DNA of 64,000 nt from Opitutia bacterium (GTDB lineage Bacteria > Verrucomicrobiota > Verrucomicrobiia > Opitutales > Opitutaceae), in contig JACPIS010000021.1 of the NCBI GenBank assembly GCA_016187925.1, forward strand, positions 1 through 64,000, written 5' to 3'. The notes under the pieces are model-generated. The model saw only the letters and a list, made by a program, of their open reading frames with translations, made no database searches and had not been told where the DNA came from. Both the position numbers and the translations under genes were made by a program. Positions 724-7,726 of this stretch are shown here, piece after piece; positions within the stretch are counted from its first letter, which is position 1; the number at the start of each line of letters is the position of its first letter.

Positions 724-1530
724 ATGTCTAAAGGCCTAGGCGAAACTCGACGCTACATCGAGTGTTCGATTTTCGTGCTGGTGTGGATGGCGGCTGGCTC
801 GCTTTTCAAACTCGGTGGTTCAGGGTATTTGTTGCTGGGTGTGCCCCTGGTTGTCGCCTTTCAGCTGCTGATAGCCCGTCGTCCCCTCCGCCAACTCTGG
901 GCGCGCGATCCTGGGTCTTTTCGGATGGACTTTAAGACGCTCTTGATGGCGTTGACGTTGATTAGCGTGCCAGTTTTGGCGCTCTTTTTTCAAGTCCGGC
1001 AGTATGGATCTATGCTTGTGGTGATCGCTGTTGGAGCGATTCCTTGTGCATTCGCGTTGCGTCACCAGCACGTTGCGAAGCTACGTCACGCGTTTCCAAG
1101 CTTCGGAATGGCAATAGTGGTCGGATGTGCGGTGTTCGCCTCATTCGCGATCTGGGATGGTCGCTCACCGGGTATGGGCCTGGCGAAACTGCCCATCTTC
1201 TTTACCGACGTAGTCTGCCTCACGCTCGCGGGGTTTGTCGTCGAAGAGGTCGTTTTCCGTGGAGCCCTTGATAGTCACTTAGTCCCTGCTCAAGGCACTA
1301 GTTTCCAACCATGGGTTTCGGCTATTTTTGTATCATTCCTATGGGGGATATGGCATTTGCCATTAACCTTTCTCTACCCGTCTCGAGAGGTAGGTTTCTT
1401 AGCGTTGGCAATCTTCATAAATATTCTTTGGGGCGTTCCGCTTTCATTCTGCTGGCGGAAAAGTGGCACGTTGCTGCTGCCAAGTGTGGTCCACGCCCTT
1501 TGTGATAGCTATCGCAACGCCCTCATGTAG
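724..1530 (+). CDS. CPBP-family intramembrane metalloprotease
   Basis: 268-residue polytopic membrane protein of the CPBP (CAAX/Abi, Rce1-like) family, glutamic intramembrane proteases that in bacteria often act in bacteriocin maturation or self-immunity. About seven hydrophobic segments are visible. The diagnostic motifs are present in order: EEVVFRG (residues 174-180, EExxxR), FLWGIWH (205-211, FxxxxxH) and VVHALCD (255-261). Codon use is more AT-rich than in the housekeeping genes, with rare codons such as ATA, which suggests acquired DNA. It stands alone between the groL terminator and the repeat island. The substrate cannot be inferred. The start is the only ATG near the beginning of the reading frame. 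Confidence 0.85.
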   Translation: MSKGLGETRRYIECSIFVLVWMAAGSLFKLGGSGYLLLGVPLVVAFQLLIARRPLRQLWARDPGSFRMDFKTLLMALTLISVPVLALFFQVRQYGSMLVVIAVGAIPCAFALRHQHVAKLRHAFPSFGMAIVVGCAVFASFAIWDGRSPGMGLAKLPIFFTDVVCLTLAGFVVEEVVFRGALDSHLVPAQGTSFQPWVSAIFVSFLWGIWHLPLTFLYPSREVGFLALAIFINILWGVPLSFCWRKSGTLLLPSVVHALCDSYRNALM

Positions 1531-1814
1531 GGCCGGAAAAGGGGGCAGGCTCAGGGTAGCCGTCGTGATCGGGGCCGAAAAAGGGGAGAGGCCGAAAATG
1601 GGGTCATACTTTTGCCATTAGCCGATTGAAAAACCGATCACTCTCCCGTCTTGCTTTGAGTCGAGACTGCCTTGGCCGACTGTCTCGGCTCGTCGGGACG
1701 ACTCACCCTACCTGTGGGCTGAAGGGGGCAGGTCGCGGATGTGGATGTCAGATTCACGCCGGACCCGAACGAATCGATTCTTGCGAGAAAGGGGCCGCGG
1801 AGTGGGGTGCCATC
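1531..1814. other. Non-coding stretch with GGCCGAAAA-type motifs and a REP-like sequence
   Basis: No convincing gene is present; the 80-aa ORF at 1626-1868 has no recognisable family apart from its end (see the DUF433 fragment). Three copies of a GGCCGAAAANGGGG-like word occur between 1531 and 1610, similar to the left edge of the 350-bp repeat (GAAAACGGGTCAGGC). At about 1684-1712 lies GGCTCGTCGGGACGACTCACCCTACC, shown here in description only as a member of the GGTAGGGCGA REP family found at 31.8, 32.3, 41.8 and 48.9 kb. Confidence 0.55.
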
Positions 1815-1868
1815 ATGAAGCCGAGCGTTATCGCGGTTGATCCCGAGATCATGAGCGGGGGAAACTGA
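1815..1868 (+). pseudogene. Truncated DUF433 (VapB-like) antitoxin, N-terminal fragment
   Basis: The ATG at 1815 opens MKPSVIAVDPEIMSGG and then reaches a stop. The VIAVDPEIMSG segment matches the start of DUF433 antitoxins, which normally continue TPVFxGTRVPV and are about 75 residues long. Homology stops where repeat copy 1 begins (about 1860), so the repeat has interrupted the gene or replaced its remainder. No partner toxin (PIN or DUF5615) is visible. Recognition rests on a short motif, hence moderate confidence. Confidence 0.6.
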
Positions 1869-2212
1869 AAACGGGTCAGGCCGCGGATGTTGATGTCCCA
1901 GCCGCGTTGGGCCAGGTCGGATCGACCCGGACAGTCGAAGCGCGGAACCGGGAGTTGGCGGAGCGGACCGATCTCGTCACAGAGCGCACCGAGGGGGCAC
2001 AGAGTCCACCGAGTCGAACCCCCGTGCTCTCTCGGTTTCTTCTTTCGTGTCGTTCGTGTGTTTTGTGGTGGCCACTGGCTCGTCGGAACCAGCCGACTTG
2101 CCCTGCCTTGGGGTCTCATCCGTGTCCCTTCGTGCAATCCGTGGTCAAAAATGTTTGGAGGCGAATCGTCCGATCTTGGTCGAGGCGCGGGGTCACTTCG
2201 GCAGGGCGTCCA
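1860..2212. repeat. Dispersed ~350-bp repeat, copy 1
   Basis: Begins GGAAACTGAAAACGGGTCAGG and ends near TTCGGCAGGGCGTCCA. It is nearly identical to copy 3 (6826-7170), and its first ~150 bases match copy 2 (6003-6156), all in the same orientation. It has no convincing ORF and no clear terminal inverted repeats. Inside are short periodic segments of the kind scattered elsewhere in the window (for example the complement of a CACGAAA-type series). Its left edge cuts the DUF433 gene and its right edge adjoins the integrase remnant. Confidence 0.88.
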
Positions 2213-2529
2213 GCGTGCACGCGCCGGTCTTCCGGTCTATGTTCTTCGGGCTCCAGTCGCAGTCTGCGGTGCTCGGTCGTCTGACTCCCGGTCGTCTTCG
2301 CCGCCCGAAAAAACCAGCGCAAGGCCTCGCGCACTGGGCCCGTGCGCAAGCGCTCCTGTTTTTCGACATACTGCTTGGCCAGCAAGACGGTGGCCGGAGC
2401 ATGCTGCGTTTTGCAGTGTTTCAGAAAAGTGATGACCTCACGGGTGTAGGCCACCTCGCCAGCGCTGCTCAGGCCGGCCTTCGCCAAAGCCTGCTTCCAA
2501 TCGGGAAATGATACGGGCCGGTTGTCCAT
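2213..2529 (-). pseudogene. intI: Integron integrase (IntI) N-terminal remnant
   Basis: From an ATG at 2529 the minus strand reads MDNRPVSFPDWKQALAKAG, then AYTREVITFLKHCKTQHAPA and GPVREALRWFFRAAK, which is the N-terminal SAM-like core-binding domain of integron integrases. Recognisable homology covers roughly the first 85 residues, to about base 2275. The catalytic tyrosine-recombinase domain (R-H-R-Y box) is absent because sequence continues straight into repeat copy 1. The gene diverges from the cassette array, the standard integron layout. Without the catalytic domain it cannot move cassettes; activity would need another integrase. A second frame over 2193-2290 ends CTLDALPK-stop, possibly an unrelated gene remnant. 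Confidence 0.82.
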
Positions 2530-2702
2530 CACGCGGCCCGTGTGTCCAGTCGAGTTGAGCTTTACGCCGGTAAAAATCAACGCGCAAAAAACTCAACCGG
2601 CAAAAATCGAGTGTTGATTTCCAGCGGCTTATCGAGCCTCATTCGCTCGCGGGCCACAATGTTGTTATCATCAACTCAGTTGAGCTGAATATACTGATCG
2701 CC
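2530..2702. promoter_or_regulatory. Integron attI / Pint-Pc region
   Basis: The 173 bp between the divergent integrase remnant and the first cassette should hold attI and the promoters for intI and the cassettes. Visible features are two similar 15-bp words (CGCCGGTAAAAATCAA and AACCGGCAAAAATCGAG), a repeated GTTGAGCT word, and a TATACT hexamer (2690-2695) that could serve as a -10 box, although no good -35 at 17 bp is seen. The recombination core is GATCGCC at 2696-2702, which is exactly complementary to the R'' box of cassette 1. The attI boundary is inferred from position. Confidence 0.6.
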
Positions 2703-2714
2703 GGAAGAAAGCAG

Positions 2715-3152
2715 ATGCCAGCGCACGCCTCCAGAATTCCCGAACTTCGTCCGCTATCGGAGCAAGAGCGCACGCTGCTTCGCTGGATGGTCGAGCAAAA
2801 TTCGGGTGTCGGTTCGGACTTATTGGCACAGCTTGATCACGCGACGGTCGCCGCTCGGTGCGGTTGTGGATGTGCGAGCATCGATCTCGCCGTCGATGGC
2901 GCTGAAGAAGACAAGAAAGAGCCCATGGATTTGATCGGGGATTACGCGTGGAGGACGAAAGCCGGCAATTTGTGCGGTGCCTATTTGTTCACGCGTCGAG
3001 GTCATCTCGCCGGTCTTGATCTGTGGAGCATCGATGGCGCAGAGACGCCGTCCGCACTGCCAGCGATTGAATCGCTCTCCGCGTTTGCTCACGTTCAGAA
3101 GGGCGATCCAGCCGGCACAGACAACTCCGGGGCTGCGCCCCGTCGTGTCTGA
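2715..3152 (+). CDS. Integron cassette 1 protein, CGCGC-motif hypothetical
   Basis: 145 residues. The first half (LSEQERTLLRWMVEQ...LLAQLDHATVAARCGCGCASIDLAVDG) matches a family of unknown function carrying an RCGCGCxSIDL signature, followed by a short beta-rich segment (LFTRRGHLAGLDLWSIDG). No signal peptide or membrane segment is present. The ATG lies 12 bases after the attI core, with GGAAGAAAG as ribosome-binding site. The stop lies inside the attC, so the last ~15 residues are attC-encoded. Function is unknown; the paired cysteines could bind metal. Confidence 0.72.
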   Translation: MPAHASRIPELRPLSEQERTLLRWMVEQNSGVGSDLLAQLDHATVAARCGCGCASIDLAVDGAEEDKKEPMDLIGDYAWRTKAGNLCGAYLFTRRGHLAGLDLWSIDGAETPSALPAIESLSAFAHVQKGDPAGTDNSGAAPRRV

Positions 3153-3167
3153 CCTCAATCGTTCGGC
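3102..3167 (+). other. attC site of cassette 1
   Basis: R'' GGCGATC (3102-3108) is the exact complement of GATCGCC at the 5' junction of this cassette (2696-2702). The middle folds as a hairpin (CAGACAACTCCGGGG, loop CTGCG, CCCCGTCGTGTCTG) with an unpaired A on the left arm. The right core GTTCGGC (3161-3167) belongs to the next cassette except for its first G. Length is about 66 bp. Confidence 0.85.
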
Positions 3168-3174
3168 AAAAGAT

Positions 3175-3591
3175 ATGCCCAAATCTCCAAAGCCAAAGTT
3201 CTGGTCGGGTGCGAGTCTACGCATACATGATGCGCCCGAACTGCACGACGAGATCAGCGCACGACTTGGCCCGCCATCAGCGTCCCACAAGAAAGGAGAG
3301 CTGCGTTCACCGACATCCAAGCGTCCATGGCCAAACGATATTTGGATGAAGGATTCCCCGTTGCCAGAAAGACGAGACATTGGTGAGCACCTTGCGTGGA
3401 TTGCGAAGTTCGCGCGACCACACTCTGCATATTTGCGACGGCTTATTCGCCGCGGCGCACGCATAGATATTTATCTGAGTTACCGCTGCGACCATGATCA
3501 TTGCGGCATTGGCCTTGCCCCGGAGCATCTGGAGATTTTTACCCGCCTCGGGATTCGCATGGAAGTTTCCATTCTGACGGATGACCTCTAG
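3175..3591 (+). CDS. Integron cassette 2 protein, DUF4279-like
   Basis: 138 residues when started at the ATG at 3175, eight bases after the core; the longer ORF in the track runs back through cassette 1 and its attC. Features typical of DUF4279 are visible: an N-terminal ASLRIHD strand, ELHDEISARLG with PPS, WPNDIWMKDSPLPER, EHLAWIAKFARPHSAYLRRL, then IDIYLSYRCDHDHCGIGLAPEHLEIF. It is soluble, with no signal peptide. DUF4279 proteins are common in cassettes, TA-like loci and near immunity genes, but their role is not known. The family call is from memory of the pattern. Confidence 0.8.
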   Translation: MPKSPKPKFWSGASLRIHDAPELHDEISARLGPPSASHKKGELRSPTSKRPWPNDIWMKDSPLPERRDIGEHLAWIAKFARPHSAYLRRLIRRGARIDIYLSYRCDHDHCGIGLAPEHLEIFTRLGIRMEVSILTDDL

Positions 3592-3606
3592 CGAAGAAGC
3601 AAGGAG

Positions 3607-3673
3607 GCCGAACAAGCGGCCAGAGCCAATGGCGGTGCTGCGCACCGCCATGGCTCATCACTGAACGTTCGGC
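3607..3673 (+). other. attC site of cassette 2
   Basis: R'' GCCGAAC (3607-3613) is complementary to the GTTCGGC core at 3161 that starts this cassette. The stem is GAGCCAATGGCGGTG / CACCGCCATGGCTC with loop CTGCG and a single extrahelical A on the left arm. R' is GTTCGGC at 3667-3673. At 67 bp this is the most canonical attC of the array. Confidence 0.9.
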
Positions 3674-3693
3674 GGAAAATAGGAACCCTCCCC

Positions 3694-4146
3694 ATGTCTA
3701 TCGCATTATTCGTATCGGTCCTCCTGAACCTGATCGTCGCAGGTCTTGTTCTCTACTTTAAGGAGAGCATCAAGGCCGTCGTCGATTATCGGAAGAAGAA
3801 GGCGCTTGCCGACTATCAGATGGATTTGGAGGAGCTTGCCGCGAGAAGAAGGAAAGCGCAGTTGGTGGCTGAGTTGTTTTCCCGTCGCTTTAACAAGCCG
3901 GACGAAGTGTATGAATTCGAAAAGCTGAATTGGGAGCTGGCGCTAGTTTTGCCGAAAGATTTGGTCTGCCTGATCACGACGAAGCTCGTAGAGAAGAACG
4001 ACAAGTTTTCAGCGATGGAAGTTCTCGTCGCGATCCGCGAGCGCCTCGGCATTAAGGATGGGCTCGAGGCGCAGAATATCGCCTACACGAAATTAGGAGA
4101 GAGCCGAACCAAACCGCCAGAGAACAACGCGCGGGATGTGACCTAA
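3694..4146 (+). CDS. Integron cassette 3 protein, membrane-anchored helical protein
   Basis: 150 residues. An N-terminal transmembrane helix (about residues 3-21, IALFVSVLLNLIVAGLVLYF) is followed by a highly charged region (RKKKALADYQMDLEELAARRRKAQ) likely to form a coiled coil, then a helical domain with WELALVLPKDLV. The architecture is a small inner-membrane protein with its bulk probably cytoplasmic. The ATG is 20 bases after the core, a longer leader than its neighbours, with GGAAC-type upstream sequence. The C-terminal ~15 residues are encoded by the attC. No family was recognised. Confidence 0.72.
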   Translation: MSIALFVSVLLNLIVAGLVLYFKESIKAVVDYRKKKALADYQMDLEELAARRRKAQLVAELFSRRFNKPDEVYEFEKLNWELALVLPKDLVCLITTKLVEKNDKFSAMEVLVAIRERLGIKDGLEAQNIAYTKLGESRTKPPENNARDVT

Positions 4147-4237
4147 ATCGTATGTGCCTTCTCCGCTCAGCATTTTCCGTAGCTCAAAAGGGCTCACTCC
4201 ACGCTCGCCCGCGCGTGTCTCATCGGTAGCGATCGGC
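4103..4237 (+). other. attC site of cassette 3 (long form, 135 bp)
   Basis: R'' GCCGAAC (4103-4109) is complementary to the GTTCGGC core at 3667. The outer stem is GAGAACAACGCGCGGG against CCCGCGCGTGTCTC, with extra unpaired bases on the left arm. The interior of about 80 bp is variable. The right core GATCGGC (4231-4237) belongs to the next cassette. It is nearly identical to the attC of cassette 4, although the cassette coding sequences are unrelated. Confidence 0.85.
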
Positions 4238-4242
4238 GGAAG

Positions 4243-4557
4243 ATGAAAGCAGGCACAAGAGTTCAATTGCAGACCTTTGATGGCATGGCCGCTTCAAAGA
4301 AGAAGGTGCTAGCAGCCGAAGACTATTGGCGTTTGGTTGGCCGGGCCGGCGCCGTTGTAGATTCGCCGGAAGAGAGGAGCGCTTTCCCGGATGCTGGTCC
4401 TGACGCTCGTGTGTGCGTTCGCTTTGACGACGATCTGAAGGCATTGGGCCTCGAAGCTCACAATCGAATCCCGAATAGTTTGTGGGTCCGAACATCCGAT
4501 CTCAGTTCGCAGAAGAGAGCCGATCCAGACCGCCAGAGAACAACGCGCGGGATGTGA
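4243..4557 (+). CDS. Integron cassette 4 hypothetical protein
   Basis: 104 residues starting six bases after the core. A beta-rich N-terminus (GTRVQLQTFDGM) is followed by EDYWRLVGRAGAVV and VCVRFDDDLKALGLEAHNRIPNSLWVRTSDL. That pattern resembles small SH3-like cassette proteins of unknown function that end in HNxxPNSLW. No membrane segment or signal is present. The last ~15 residues and the stop lie in the attC. There is almost no room for a conventional Shine-Dalgarno (GGAAG abuts the ATG), so translation may depend on coupling or an atypical leader. Confidence 0.65.
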   Translation: MKAGTRVQLQTFDGMAASKKKVLAAEDYWRLVGRAGAVVDSPEERSAFPDAGPDARVCVRFDDDLKALGLEAHNRIPNSLWVRTSDLSSQKRADPDRQRTTRGM

Positions 4558-4653
4558 CCTAAATCGTATGCTCCATCTCCGCTCAGCATTTTCCGCAGTT
4601 CAAAAGGGCTCACTCCACGCTCGCCCGCGCGTGTCTCATCGGTGACGATCGGC
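4519..4653 (+). other. attC site of cassette 4 (long form, 135 bp)
   Basis: R'' GCCGATC (4519-4525) is complementary to the GATCGGC core that begins this cassette at 4231. It has the same long architecture and almost the same sequence as the attC of cassette 3, including the ACGCGCGGG / CCCGCGCGT stem. R' is GATCGGC at 4647-4653. Confidence 0.87.
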
Positions 4654-4662
4654 GGAAGAAAG

Positions 4663-5070
4663 ATGAAGATCTCGAAGATTGTTTACTGGTTGGCGCTTGC
4701 CTGTCTCGGCTACTACACGGTCCGCAGCGTCATCGTTGGCGGTTCCGGAATGATCGTCGGTCGTGTGCTCGCCATCGCGCTCTGGTCATTCCTCACATGG
4801 ATGCTGTTCCGCCGGCCGAAGGCATGGGGCTTGGGTGTCGGCATCTTCATGCTTCTTACCGTCGCCATTCAGCTTGGACTTTGGCGGCTGGCAGTGACTA
4901 GCCCGAAGAAAGAGGAGCTAGGTTTGGACGATAGCTGGCTTTCATTCGGATCGTCGGTTTCCCCGCTGATCCTCGGCGGCATATTTAGCATCAGCCTCCG
5001 TTGGCTGGCTCCCCAAGAGGCCGATCCAGCCGGCACAGACAACGACCGGGCTGCGCCCGGTCGTGTCTGA
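4663..5070 (+). CDS. Integron cassette 5 protein, small integral membrane protein
   Basis: 135 residues from the ATG at 4663. The ORF track starts seven codons earlier, across the core, which is unlikely because GGAAGAAAG gives a ribosome-binding site for 4663. About four hydrophobic helices are visible (IVYWLALACLGYYTV, VLAIALWSFLTWMLF, GVGIFMLLTVAIQLGLW, and one near VSPLILGGIFSISL). No family was recognised. The final residues (DPAGTDNDRAAPGRV) are encoded by the attC and resemble the tail of cassette 1 for that reason only. Confidence 0.7.
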   Translation: MKISKIVYWLALACLGYYTVRSVIVGGSGMIVGRVLAIALWSFLTWMLFRRPKAWGLGVGIFMLLTVAIQLGLWRLAVTSPKKEELGLDDSWLSFGSSVSPLILGGIFSISLRWLAPQEADPAGTDNDRAAPGRV

Positions 5071-5085
5071 CCTCAGTCGATCGGC
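5020..5085 (+). other. attC site of cassette 5
   Basis: R'' GCCGATC (5020-5026) is complementary to the GATCGGC core at 4647. The hairpin is CAGACAACGACCGGG / CCCGGTCGTGTCTG with loop CTGCG and one extrahelical A. R' is GATCGGC at 5079-5085. It is 66 bp long and close in sequence to the attC of cassette 1. Confidence 0.9.
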
Positions 5086-5090
5086 GGAAG

Positions 5091-5567
5091 ATGAATTGCA
5101 TTCCGATACTCATCGTAGCCCTTGCCGCGCTTCCTGCGTGCTCAAAGAAAGAAGCACCGACCGAGGCGGTGGTCAGAAATGAGGATCCTCCATTTTTCGT
5201 TAATCCCAAGTTCACTGGCGGTCCATCGGTGATGACGGCCGCTCGCAAAATTTTCCCAGAAAGTAGTCAGATCGACCTGCGGGACTTTTGGACGAGCGCC
5301 GATGGCACCCACGAATTCGTGGTTTTCTTCGTAGGTCGGGAAATCAAAGGAGGGTTTGAGGGCATGTATTGGCGCTATCTGGCATTCGCTAAGAAGAAGA
5401 GCGACCGAGATTGGGCTAGTGCTCGAATTTTCGACTTACCCGATAATCGCTTCGGGCCGCTTGATCGTTCGCTGGCGTGGCTTGAGCAGAATGCGAAAGA
5501 GCTGAAAGCGCCGATCCAGATGTCAGAGCCAACGTCCGGGCTGGCGCCCGGACGTGGCTCACCATAG
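5091..5567 (+). CDS. Integron cassette 6 protein, predicted lipoprotein
   Basis: 158 residues from the ATG at 5091, five bases after the core. A lipoprotein signal is clear: MNCIPILIVALAALPAC with lipobox LPAC, then a charged mature start (SKKEAPTEAV). The mature part has an alternating pattern (DLRDFWTSADGTHEFVVFFVGREIKGGFEGMYWRYLAF) suggesting a small globular periplasmic domain. No family was recognised. The track's longer ORF reaches back into cassette 5 and is rejected because the lipobox fixes the start. Confidence 0.75.
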   Translation: MNCIPILIVALAALPACSKKEAPTEAVVRNEDPPFFVNPKFTGGPSVMTAARKIFPESSQIDLRDFWTSADGTHEFVVFFVGREIKGGFEGMYWRYLAFAKKKSDRDWASARIFDLPDNRFGPLDRSLAWLEQNAKELKAPIQMSEPTSGLAPGRGSP

Positions 5568-5576
5568 ACGATCGGC
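5510..5576 (+). other. attC site of cassette 6
   Basis: R'' GCCGATC (5510-5516) is complementary to the GATCGGC core at 5079. The stem is GAGCCAACGTCCGGG / CCCGGACGTGGCTC with loop CTGGCG and one extrahelical A. R' is GATCGGC at 5570-5576. Length is 67 bp. Confidence 0.9.
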
Positions 5577-5585
5577 GGAAGAAAG

Positions 5586-5927
5586 ATGAAGATGCTGCGC
5601 TCACTCGTAGGAGATCAGTTCGCGAAGGAGGTCCATCTGGATCGCCCTCCGCGGACCATTGGTGAGCGCGTGTTTCGCTTCTCGGTCTATTTTTTCATCG
5701 TGAGCAGTATCCTTGGCGGATTGGCCGAGTTTGCAGGTGTCGATAAGAAGATTGGCGAAAGCATGGGATTCCTGATGTGGCCTTTCTCGGTGCTGTTCAT
5801 GTTTTCGTTCATTTACATGCTGGCCTTCGCCTATGTTCGGTATGTCCGTCCTCAGAAAGTCCGGCGGTCTAGTGATTCGTCCGTAAGCGGAGAGCCGATC
5901 CAGTCAGCCACAGACCAACGCCCTTGA
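5586..5927 (+). CDS. Integron cassette 7 protein, two-helix membrane protein
   Basis: 113 residues. Two hydrophobic segments are visible (about residues 31-50, FRFSVYFFIVSSILGGLAEF, and 62-86, FLMWPFSVLFMFSFIYMLAFAYV), flanked by basic stretches. The ATG lies nine bases after the core, with GGAAGAAAG as ribosome-binding site, as in cassette 5. The last 11 residues are encoded by the start of a truncated attC. No family was recognised. Confidence 0.7.
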   Translation: MKMLRSLVGDQFAKEVHLDRPPRTIGERVFRFSVYFFIVSSILGGLAEFAGVDKKIGESMGFLMWPFSVLFMFSFIYMLAFAYVRYVRPQKVRRSSDSSVSGEPIQSATDQRP

Positions 5928-6002
5928 TCTCACCTGAATCGCTGATGATATCTTCGCTCAACATGGCCCAGTTATTCAAAAGAGACGGCTCGCCCGCCCG
6001 GC
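5894..6002 (+). other. Truncated attC of cassette 7
   Basis: R'' GCCGATC (5894-5900) matches the GATCGGC core at 5570. The interior aligns with the long attCs (CACCTGAATCG..., TTCAAAAG, GGCTCGCCCGC) but stops at about 5998, and the expected stem end, R' and core are missing. Repeat copy 2 begins immediately after, so the repeat truncated this end of the array. Confidence 0.75.
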
Positions 6003-6156
6003 GGAAACTGAAAACGGGTCAGGCCGCGGATGTTGATGTTCCAGCCGCGTTGGGCCAGGTCGGATCGACCCGGACAGTCGAAGCGCGGAACCGGGAGTTG
6101 GCGGAGCGGACCGATCTCGTCACAGAGCGTACCGAGATGGCGCAGTGTCCACCGAG
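6003..6156. repeat. Dispersed repeat, copy 2 (left part only)
   Basis: Starts GGAAACTGAAAACGGGTCAGG and follows copy 1 closely to about CCACCGAG at 6156, then diverges into unrelated sequence containing CTCTGTGTGCTCCGTGCC-like words. Same orientation as copies 1 and 3. The stretch from 6157 to 6266 holds nothing recognisable. Confidence 0.85.
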
Positions 6157-6266
6157 ATCATCCTCTGTGTGCTCCGTGCCCCTCCTGACTTTCTCCGTGA
6201 CGAGCTACGCCTCTGCCATCCGGGTTCATCCGGGCGGACGCGGCGAGGGCGCCGCGTCTCCAAGGT

Positions 6267-6566
6267 CTATTCGTGCCGGCCGGTCCAGTAGAGTGGGTGC
6301 CGCTTGCTGTGGCTGATGGACAGAATTTCCAATTCTTCGCCGGCGATCTTTTCCCAATAGTAGAAAGCGTAGGGGAAGCGGCGGAGCAGCCCTCGGCGGA
6401 CATCTTGATCGATCACCCGCCAGCGATGGGGAAATTGCCGCAGGTCGGCGACCGCTTCGTCCACCGCAGCGATGAAATCCGCGCCCAGGCCCGGGCGCTG
6501 GTTTTCGTGGTAACAGGCGGCCTCGGAGAATTCCCGCTCCGCTTCGGGATGCAGGACAACCCTCAT
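6267..6566 (-). CDS. ParE/RelE-family toxin
   Basis: 99-residue ParE-like toxin: MRVVLHPEAEREFSEAACYHENQRPGLGADFIAAVDEAVADL, then FPHRWRVIDQDVRRGLLRRFPYAFYYWE and ILSISHSKRHPLYWTGR. Family members poison gyrase (ParE) or cleave mRNA on ribosomes (RelE); the sequence favours the ParE branch. It overlaps the upstream antitoxin by four bases (ATGA), so the two are translationally coupled. The module runs opposite to the integron cassettes and has no attC, so it is not a cassette. Confidence 0.88.
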   Translation of the reverse strand: MRVVLHPEAEREFSEAACYHENQRPGLGADFIAAVDEAVADLRQFPHRWRVIDQDVRRGLLRRFPYAFYYWEKIAGEELEILSISHSKRHPLYWTGRHE

Positions 6567-6775
6567 CGTGCCGGGTTCAGCGCGGCCCGGGCGGCGGCTT
6601 GCGCCTGCTCGTAGGGACGGCTGACCACTTGGCCCGTGGTGGATTGCTTTTTGCGTTCAAGCGCGACTTGCAGCGCCGGATCCTCCCGCTCGGCTTTGAG
6701 CATAAAGGCGGAAACCTCGGCGAAGCCCTCCGGGGGCAGGCCCTTGATTTCGGCGATGATCTCGGCGGCTTTCAT
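6563..6775 (-). CDS. Antitoxin partner of the ParE-like toxin
   Basis: 70 residues from MKAAEIIAEIKGLPPEGFAEVSAFM; a start six codons upstream (6793) is also possible. Small, charged and helical, it precedes the toxin with an ATGA overlap, the usual antitoxin-first order. The N-terminal AAEIIAEIKGLPPEGFAEV pattern is seen in helical antitoxins of ParDE/RelBE-type pairs, where residues 1-50 dimerise and the C-terminus wraps the toxin. No DNA-binding fold could be assigned with certainty. Autoregulation is expected from the family. Confidence 0.78.
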   Translation of the reverse strand: MKAAEIIAEIKGLPPEGFAEVSAFMLKAEREDPALQVALERKKQSTTGQVVSRPYEQAQAAARAALNPAR

Positions 6776-6825
6776 GGCGGGAACATCATCCACCGCGCCC
6801 GGAAAATCAACCCCGCTTTGGGCCC

Positions 6826-7170
6826 AGAAAACAGGTCAGGCCGCGGATGGTGATGTCCCGGGCGCGTTGAGCCCGGTCGGATCGACCCGGACAGTCGAAG
6901 CGCGGAACCGGGAGTTGGCGGAGCGGACCGATCTCGTCACAGAGCGCACCGAGGGGCACAGAGTCCACCGAGTCGAACCCCCGTGCGCTCTCGGTTTCTA
7001 CTTTCGTGTCGTTCGTGTGTTTTGTGGTGGCCACTGGCTCGTCGGAACCAGCCGACTTGCCCTGCCTTGGGGTTTCATCCGTGTCCCTCCGTGCAATCCG
7101 CGGGCAAGAAGATTTGAGGCGAATCGTCCGATCTTGGTCGAGGAGCGGGGTCACTTCGGCAGGGCGTCCA
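6826..7170. repeat. Dispersed ~350-bp repeat, copy 3
   Basis: Nearly identical to copy 1 (1860-2212) over its whole length, with an abraded left edge (AGAAAACAGGTCAGGCC). Its right end runs into the last codons and stop of the prepilin-like gene (TTCGGCAGGGCGTCCA is the complement of the codons for DALPK). Internal shadow ORFs have no protein family. Confidence 0.88.
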
Positions 7171-7726
7171 TCGCTTCGCGCCAGAATTCGCGGAACTTCC
7201 GCAGGCGGTCCTTCTTTTCCTGATCGAGGTTGGGGTCGTTGAGCTGCAGGTCGAGGCACTCCATCAGGCGCGGGTCCGTCGCCTTGAGGTCGTCCTTCAG
7301 CGTGCGGAGCAGGTCTTCGACCGGCTCCCGCAGGTTTGGCGGCACTTTGCCGAACAGCCCCGTGGCCGACGTGCCGCCCTTGCCCGGCCCGAAGAGGCCG
7401 TTGCCCGTCGCGTCGATCATCTGCTCGATGGCGTGCAGTTTTTCCATGAAGCCGAGGATCGCGTCGGCGCTGCACTCGCCGAGTTGCAAACCGTGCTTGA
7501 GCTCTTGGAACGCGTTGACGACTCCGACGGCGGCCTGCCCCACGCCCACGGCGCGGCGGGCCGATTCCTCCACGGCCTTCTTCGTTTGCTCGGCGGATTT
7601 TTTGCTGTCGGGCGCGCAGGCGAACATCGCCACGACCAAGGCGATCAGCGCGATGACGATGGCCAGTTCGACCAGACCAAAGCCGCGGTTGGAGGCCAGG
7701 CGGCGGGAAACGGTGGGAGTTTTCAT
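7151..7726 (-). CDS. Prepilin-like protein with type III (class III) signal
   Basis: 191 residues starting at MKTPTVSRRLASNRGFGLVELAI. The basic leader ends in Gly, followed by F and a Glu at +5, then about 20 hydrophobic residues (LVELAIVIALIALVVAMF). This is the prepilin peptidase site and assembly helix of type IV pilins and type II pseudopilins. The rest is helical and charged and not a typical pilin head, with a Cys just after the helix. No pilus machinery is nearby. The start is fixed by the leader; the long ORF upstream is the shadow of the next gene. The last residues (MDALPK) lie in the repeat-shared sequence. Confidence 0.75.
   Translation of the reverse strand: MKTPTVSRRLASNRGFGLVELAIVIALIALVVAMFACAPDSKKSAEQTKKAVEESARRAVGVGQAAVGVVNAFQELKHGLQLGECSADAILGFMEKLHAIEQMIDATGNGLFGPGKGGTSATGLFGKVPPNLREPVEDLLRTLKDDLKATDPRLMECLDLQLNDPNLDQEKKDRLRKFREFWREAMDALPK

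Follow-up and report, generated by a model that had tools for sequence, protein, structure and literature searches.

Positions 2281–6004 of the window (the whole 64,000-nucleotide stretch analysed here, which opens contig C35 in an Opitutaceae genome of 4.0 Mb) are a decayed Opitutaceae chromosomal integron, comprising a truncated intI, the end of attI and seven cassettes. Its two near-identical 135-bp sites, attC3 and attC4, belong among the ordinary recombination sites of integrons; their type is confined to a single bacterial family and is carried there by many unrelated cassettes. In the reading we prefer, to which we give a probability of about 0.85, the decayed integron carries a family-specific long attC, cassette recombination set the left cores of the sites, and the junction of the cassette circle was joined to genes. 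The locus is laid out as follows, with attC coordinates and lengths obtained from the sequence, a covariance model and BLAST.

1856–2215, 5999–6174 (plus strand) and 6827–7173: copies of a direct repeat, of which the copy at 5999–6174 cuts off attC7
2281–2580, minus strand: intI remnant, N-terminal ∼90 amino acids only, interrupted downstream near the direct repeat
2662–2696, plus strand: end of attI with the crossover G at 2696, placed by similarity to relatives
2697–3161, plus strand: cassette 1, attC at 3102–3167 (66 bp); its own 5′ core GATCGCC pairs with R″ GGCGATC
3162–3667, plus strand: cassette 2, encoding a DUF4279 protein (3178–3591), attC at 3607–3673 (67 bp), cores GTTCGGC and GCCGAAC
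3668–4231, plus strand: cassette 3, ORF 3694–4146, whose stop lies inside the attC
4096–4102, plus strand: purine tract GGAGAGA, abutting the left core of attC3
4103–4237, plus strand: attC3, 135 bp, left core GCCGAAC; its last 6 nt (4232–4237) are those of cassette 4
4232–4647, plus strand: cassette 4, ORF 4243–4557, whose stop lies inside the attC; purine tract at 4511–4518
4519–4653, plus strand: attC4, 135 bp, left core GCCGATC; its last 6 nt (4648–4653) are those of cassette 5
4648–5079, plus strand: cassette 5, attC at 5020–5085 (66 bp), cores GATCGGC and GCCGATC
5080–5570, plus strand: cassette 6, attC at 5510–5576 (67 bp), cores GATCGGC and GCCGATC
5571–6004, plus strand: cassette 7, with a truncated long attC of a second 135-bp type from 5894

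The seven cassettes form an attC-ended array in a single orientation, all on the plus strand, and an attI, judged by similarity to relatives, lies between intI and the first of them; its end carries TTGTTATCATCAACTCAGTTGAGCTGAATATACTG, which is conserved at the intI-proximal cassette junction in many relatives. The intact intI that the definition of a chromosomal integron places beside the array is missing. The remnant is 64% identical over 90 amino acids to a full IntI from a genome of the same genus, and a search of the whole genome for a full IntI returned only XerC/XerD-like matches; in relatives, a full intI adjoins the same kind of array. The locus counts as a decayed integron and not as a working one. 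It resembles a CALIN (an attC cluster without an integrase) in that intact IntI is absent from the genome, but the window keeps attI and an intI remnant, hence a decayed integron. Contigs C41 and C5 of the same genome hold more attC clusters without an integrase.

The direct repeat, of ∼360 bp, flanks and cuts the integron and does not occur away from this locus. One copy, ending at 2215, lies where the intI remnant breaks off, and attC7 is ended by the repeat at about 5999–6004. The right copy (6827–7173) includes the last codons of a minus-strand gene at 7151 and may be the source of the repeat. Between two of the copies, at 6267–6793 on the minus strand, lie a ParE-like toxin gene and a small upstream partner. 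At the contig start (1–607) there is a groEL-like gene with a frame change near 476 and with ∼75 nt of a normal GroEL missing; either the copy is broken or the edge of the contig is misassembled.

Sites 1–6 measure 66, 67, 135, 135, 66 and 67 bp, as the first-pass annotation had it. Short and long sites have R″, L″, L′, R′ and a lower stem in common, and differ in the terminal loop. The bottom strands of sites 2, 4, 5 and 6 fold as attC-type hairpins, and these folds, together with covariance-model matches, give the R″-L″-L′-R′ bottom-strand hairpin. The left core of site 3 faces the right core of the next cassette, which leaves the outer pairs of this site imperfect. As modelled, the window attCs would fit the structural definition of an attC, with putative recombination by IntI at the right core. 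The annotation had also placed the start of the last attC, attC7, in the long class; it is indeed of a 135-bp type, but of a second one that joins the cluster of attC3 and attC4 only at a 75% threshold. A complete copy of this second type lies on contig C5 (L009:9109–9243; 95% match over 111 bp).

Two insertions were seen in attCs of the family. The cluster on contig C5 contains an IS110-type transposase gene (L009:10740–11850), apparently splitting an attC, and a 77% identical protein is encoded in an array of another genome (L062); the IS110 transposase family has known attC-targeting members. Separately, the loop of one long attC (L075:9859–10015) carries an insert of ∼45 bp.

The pairing of the cores reveals to which cassette each left core belongs. 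The IntI crossover separates the G of the right core from the TT after it (PMC3518468); an arrayed attC therefore ends in six bases that are those of the next cassette, and its left core should pair with the opening bases of the cassette to which it belongs. All seven cassettes of the window follow this pairing, cassette 1 against attI: cassettes 2 and 3 start with GTTCGGC and end with GCCGAAC, cassettes 4 to 7 start with GATCGGC and end with GCCGATC, and cassette 1 has GATCGCC at attI and GGCGATC at its end. In a first set of family cassettes, 100 were informative: the left core agreed with the 5′ core of its own cassette in 73 and with the right core of the array in 5; in the other 22 it matched neither, some of these being mis-called boundaries and others perhaps mutated or fused cassettes. 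In a second set, made up of family arrays picked separately through their integrases, the counts were 60/64 and 0/64; a further array, from another part of the phylum and read by direct pattern, gave 19 of 22 and 1. The own 5′ end is ∼400 bp off in the array, yet adjacent in the excised circle.

The left cores of sites 3 and 4 do differ, GCCGAAC against GCCGATC, and this difference had been taken to mean that the core evolves or recombines separately from the stem. That interpretation did not hold, as the left core pairs with its own 5′ end and the attC class is tied to that end (see below). The core goes with its cassette, and own-end pairing means that a core evolving apart from the stem is not needed as an explanation.

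attC3 and attC4 match at 93% over 149 nt (∼94% identity between the sites), and the match starts 8 nt upstream of the left core, in the purine tract, not at the core itself. Two long sites that are adjacent and this similar could stem from a tandem duplication of cassettes 3 and 4, after which the ORFs diverged or were replaced and the attCs were kept alike; the first-pass annotation had named this as the outcome that would overturn its reading. We consider such a duplication very improbable: the neighbouring ORFs have no detectable similarity, with no alignment even at E=100, although the non-coding sites are 93–94% alike, each site has a closer match in another genome than in its neighbour (attC3, 0.959 to genome G161; attC4, 0.967 to genome G074), and the 5′ cores and leaders of the two cassettes differ. 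Near-identical sites thus do stand beside unrelated ORFs, as had been claimed.

Among 156 family cassettes, 137 pairs of attC interiors are at least 90% alike, and 0/137 have a common ORF; the sole strong ORF match, between L009 and L062, is an insertion-sequence transposase, so not a cassette gene. Gene 3 itself occurs with three different 3′ ends. In the window it is followed by the long attC. G096, a genome of the same genus, has a 92% identical relative. The similarity extends upstream as far as the right-core region (p=0.0005) and ends with the stop codon, at about 4095 (3′ side, p=0.33), and no recognisable attC is picked up there by the covariance model. This copy may be a former cassette that lost its attC, or may never have had one. 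A more distant relative, in another genus and 33% identical, is followed by a 65-bp attC. An ORF pair of 61% likeness (L074 and L082) has retained the same long attC type. Because the relatives of gene 3 differ at the 3′ end while this pair keeps its type, the gene–attC association is labile, and genes and attCs have separate histories. The earlier proposal that attCs were attached independently to different genes stands as far as separate histories and unrelated ORFs go, whereas its attC-spreading step is a postulate.

Among 148 forward ORFs of cassettes, the stop codon precedes the attC in 61 and lies within it in 79, with peaks directly before the left core and 30–60 nt into the attC. The stop codons of ORFs 3 and 4 are provided by the attC.

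Several elements of a cassette vary together. In tests devised after viewing the first set, and with class and leader tested in that set only, attC class was associated with the cassette's own 5′ core (MI 0.876 versus 0.580 ± 0.054 in shuffles within the locus) and with its own leader (p=0.0015), and showed no tie to the core or leader of the next cassette (p=0.45 and 0.68). The link between class and leader remained with the core held fixed (p=0.01–0.02), although the core could partly stand between them, via selection for hairpin pairing. GG leaders follow GAT cores in 34/53 cases and GTT cores in 6/81. In exploratory counts, the first cassettes after attI in relatives had GG leaders in 17/24 cases versus 40/134 elsewhere (p=0.0003), and GAT cores in 15/24. 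Only in the excised circle do the covarying elements form one unbroken stretch.

These ties bear on whether homologous recombination or gene conversion between attC interiors keeps the sites of an array alike. Long sites are on average most alike within an array (0.874), less so within a genus (0.824) and least between genera (0.758), and 7/53 have their nearest neighbour in the same array where 1.8 would be expected. However, the nearest neighbour of 44/53 lies in another genome, for 32 of these in another genus, and attC class is not tied to the 5′ end of the adjacent cassette; a crossover inside the attC alone would create no tie. We therefore regard this process as an unlikely source of the pattern.

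The purine tract of attC3 and attC4 recurs well beyond them. A conserved tract approximating AAGAAAGA occupies the 8 nt directly before the left core in arrays throughout the family, whatever the attC class. Under a 7-of-8 rule, 67% of first-set cassettes have it at the left core, compared with 6% at other places in the cassette, and the second-set figures are 57.5% and 4.8%; in the array from elsewhere in the phylum the tract at the left core is A-rich. Read on the bottom strand, tract and hairpin become a hairpin followed by a pyrimidine-rich tail, as might suit gain of the attC by a retro-element route, for example through group IIC-attC introns that set genes beside attC-like hairpins. Insertion of these introns at attCs is known, and they have been proposed to contribute to forming cassettes, according to works cited in PMC8876359 and PMC8946536. 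RNA-family (Rfam) models gave no match reaching E=1 in window positions 1500–7500, and we think this route improbable. Target-site duplication around the attC was also considered and set aside, the flanks of the same cassette being barely more alike than shuffled ones (p=0.044).

The long loop might instead have been conserved, and spread with many genes, for a peptide that it encodes, as open frames run through both of its strands and 3-nt indels occur. Codon periodicity is absent over the 53-site alignment (phase means 0.140, 0.150 and 0.156; p=0.96), which contradicts a peptide for this alignment; we consider this alternative very improbable.

The 135-bp site is present in 28/200 Opitutaceae genomes and 12/49 genera, with up to 95% identity to a copy in another genus. 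An exact motif drawn from it matches 18 stretches among 84,980 species genomes, all under verrucomicrobial titles and mostly Opitutaceae. Across 42 stretches we collected 192 attCs of several length and sequence types, each occurring across genera; other attC types are under-sampled in this collection, since the long attC served to pick the first set and the training data of the covariance model were eight sites of the window genome. The genomes are mostly draft, contigs often end at arrays and some site boundaries are mis-called. The two size classes proposed earlier describe the window, but the family has more, at about 57–64, 66–68, 70–74, 90–100, 111–115 and 131–136 bp. The short-attC model found almost no matches outside the family.

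It is textbook knowledge of chromosomal integrons that near-identical, lineage-specific repeats stand on either side of unrelated genes (PMC8876359). The Opitutaceae sites resemble the Vibrio cholerae repeats (VCRs) and other chromosomal-integron attCs in being near-identical, lineage-specific sites of ∼120–135 bp with a large terminal loop beside unrelated genes (PMC8876359, PMC2727003). Unlike VCRs, they come in several types per array, their cores are diverse, and one site type spans at least 12 genera of one family. In a VCR-type superintegron nearly all attCs are near-identical, whereas here 2/7 are; the window array works like such a superintegron but is not one.

Compared with the canonical consensus RYYYAAC...GTTRRRY, the Opitutaceae sites keep the R-box pairing, the L boxes and the hairpin of the bottom strand, but the triplet is ATC/GAT in 51–54 of 129 cassettes. 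AAC and GTT have been described as the only conserved attC bases (PMC2727003). The window does not keep to these triplets: the right cores of sites 3–6 are GATCGGC and the left cores of sites 4–7 are GCCGATC. The left triplets of the 129 usable cassettes comprise 74 AAC and 54 ATC, and the right triplets 74 GTT and 51 GAT. The ATC/GAT form makes up ∼40% of cores in the main set, with the change on both sides of the same cassette, and is rarer in the second set, at about one in six. The literature searched held no paper on purine-rich attC flanks or Opitutaceae integrons; the second core-box type and the site-plus-leader module that travels together are unreported twists.

We infer past IntI activity and a circular intermediate, in the following way. 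While it was present, IntI would have folded the bottom strand of the attC, a step established for integrons in general. Strand exchange would separate the G of the right core from the base after it, and the six bases that follow the G would go with the downstream cassette. The left core would pair with its own 5′ end, its neighbour in the excised circle, and not with the right core of the array; such pairing would explain why GCCGAAC at site 3 stands against GCCGATC at site 4 despite the like interiors. The part joined to unrelated genes would be the junction of the circular cassette, consisting of purine tract, attC, right core and a leader with the ribosome site. We treat this junction as the joined unit because class, left core, 5′ core and leader covary in a cassette and the ORFs do not.

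A more general proposal for the Opitutaceae, which we put forward tentatively and at somewhat less than even odds, is that this contiguous stretch of the circle is attached to new genes, with coding sequences entering between leader and tract and often losing their own stop, and that one integrase acts on both AAC/GTT and ATC/GAT cores. How a gene is converted to a cassette is a long-standing gap. The diverse cores serve as a bar code that links a 5′ end to its attC, making joining events traceable in existing genomes, and gene 3, with a long, a short or no recognisable attC, provides a concrete case with the breakpoint mapped at the stop codon. Should ATC/GAT cores recombine, the sole sequence feature thought common to attCs would not be required, and attC finders tuned to AAC/GTT may overlook sites in this phylum.
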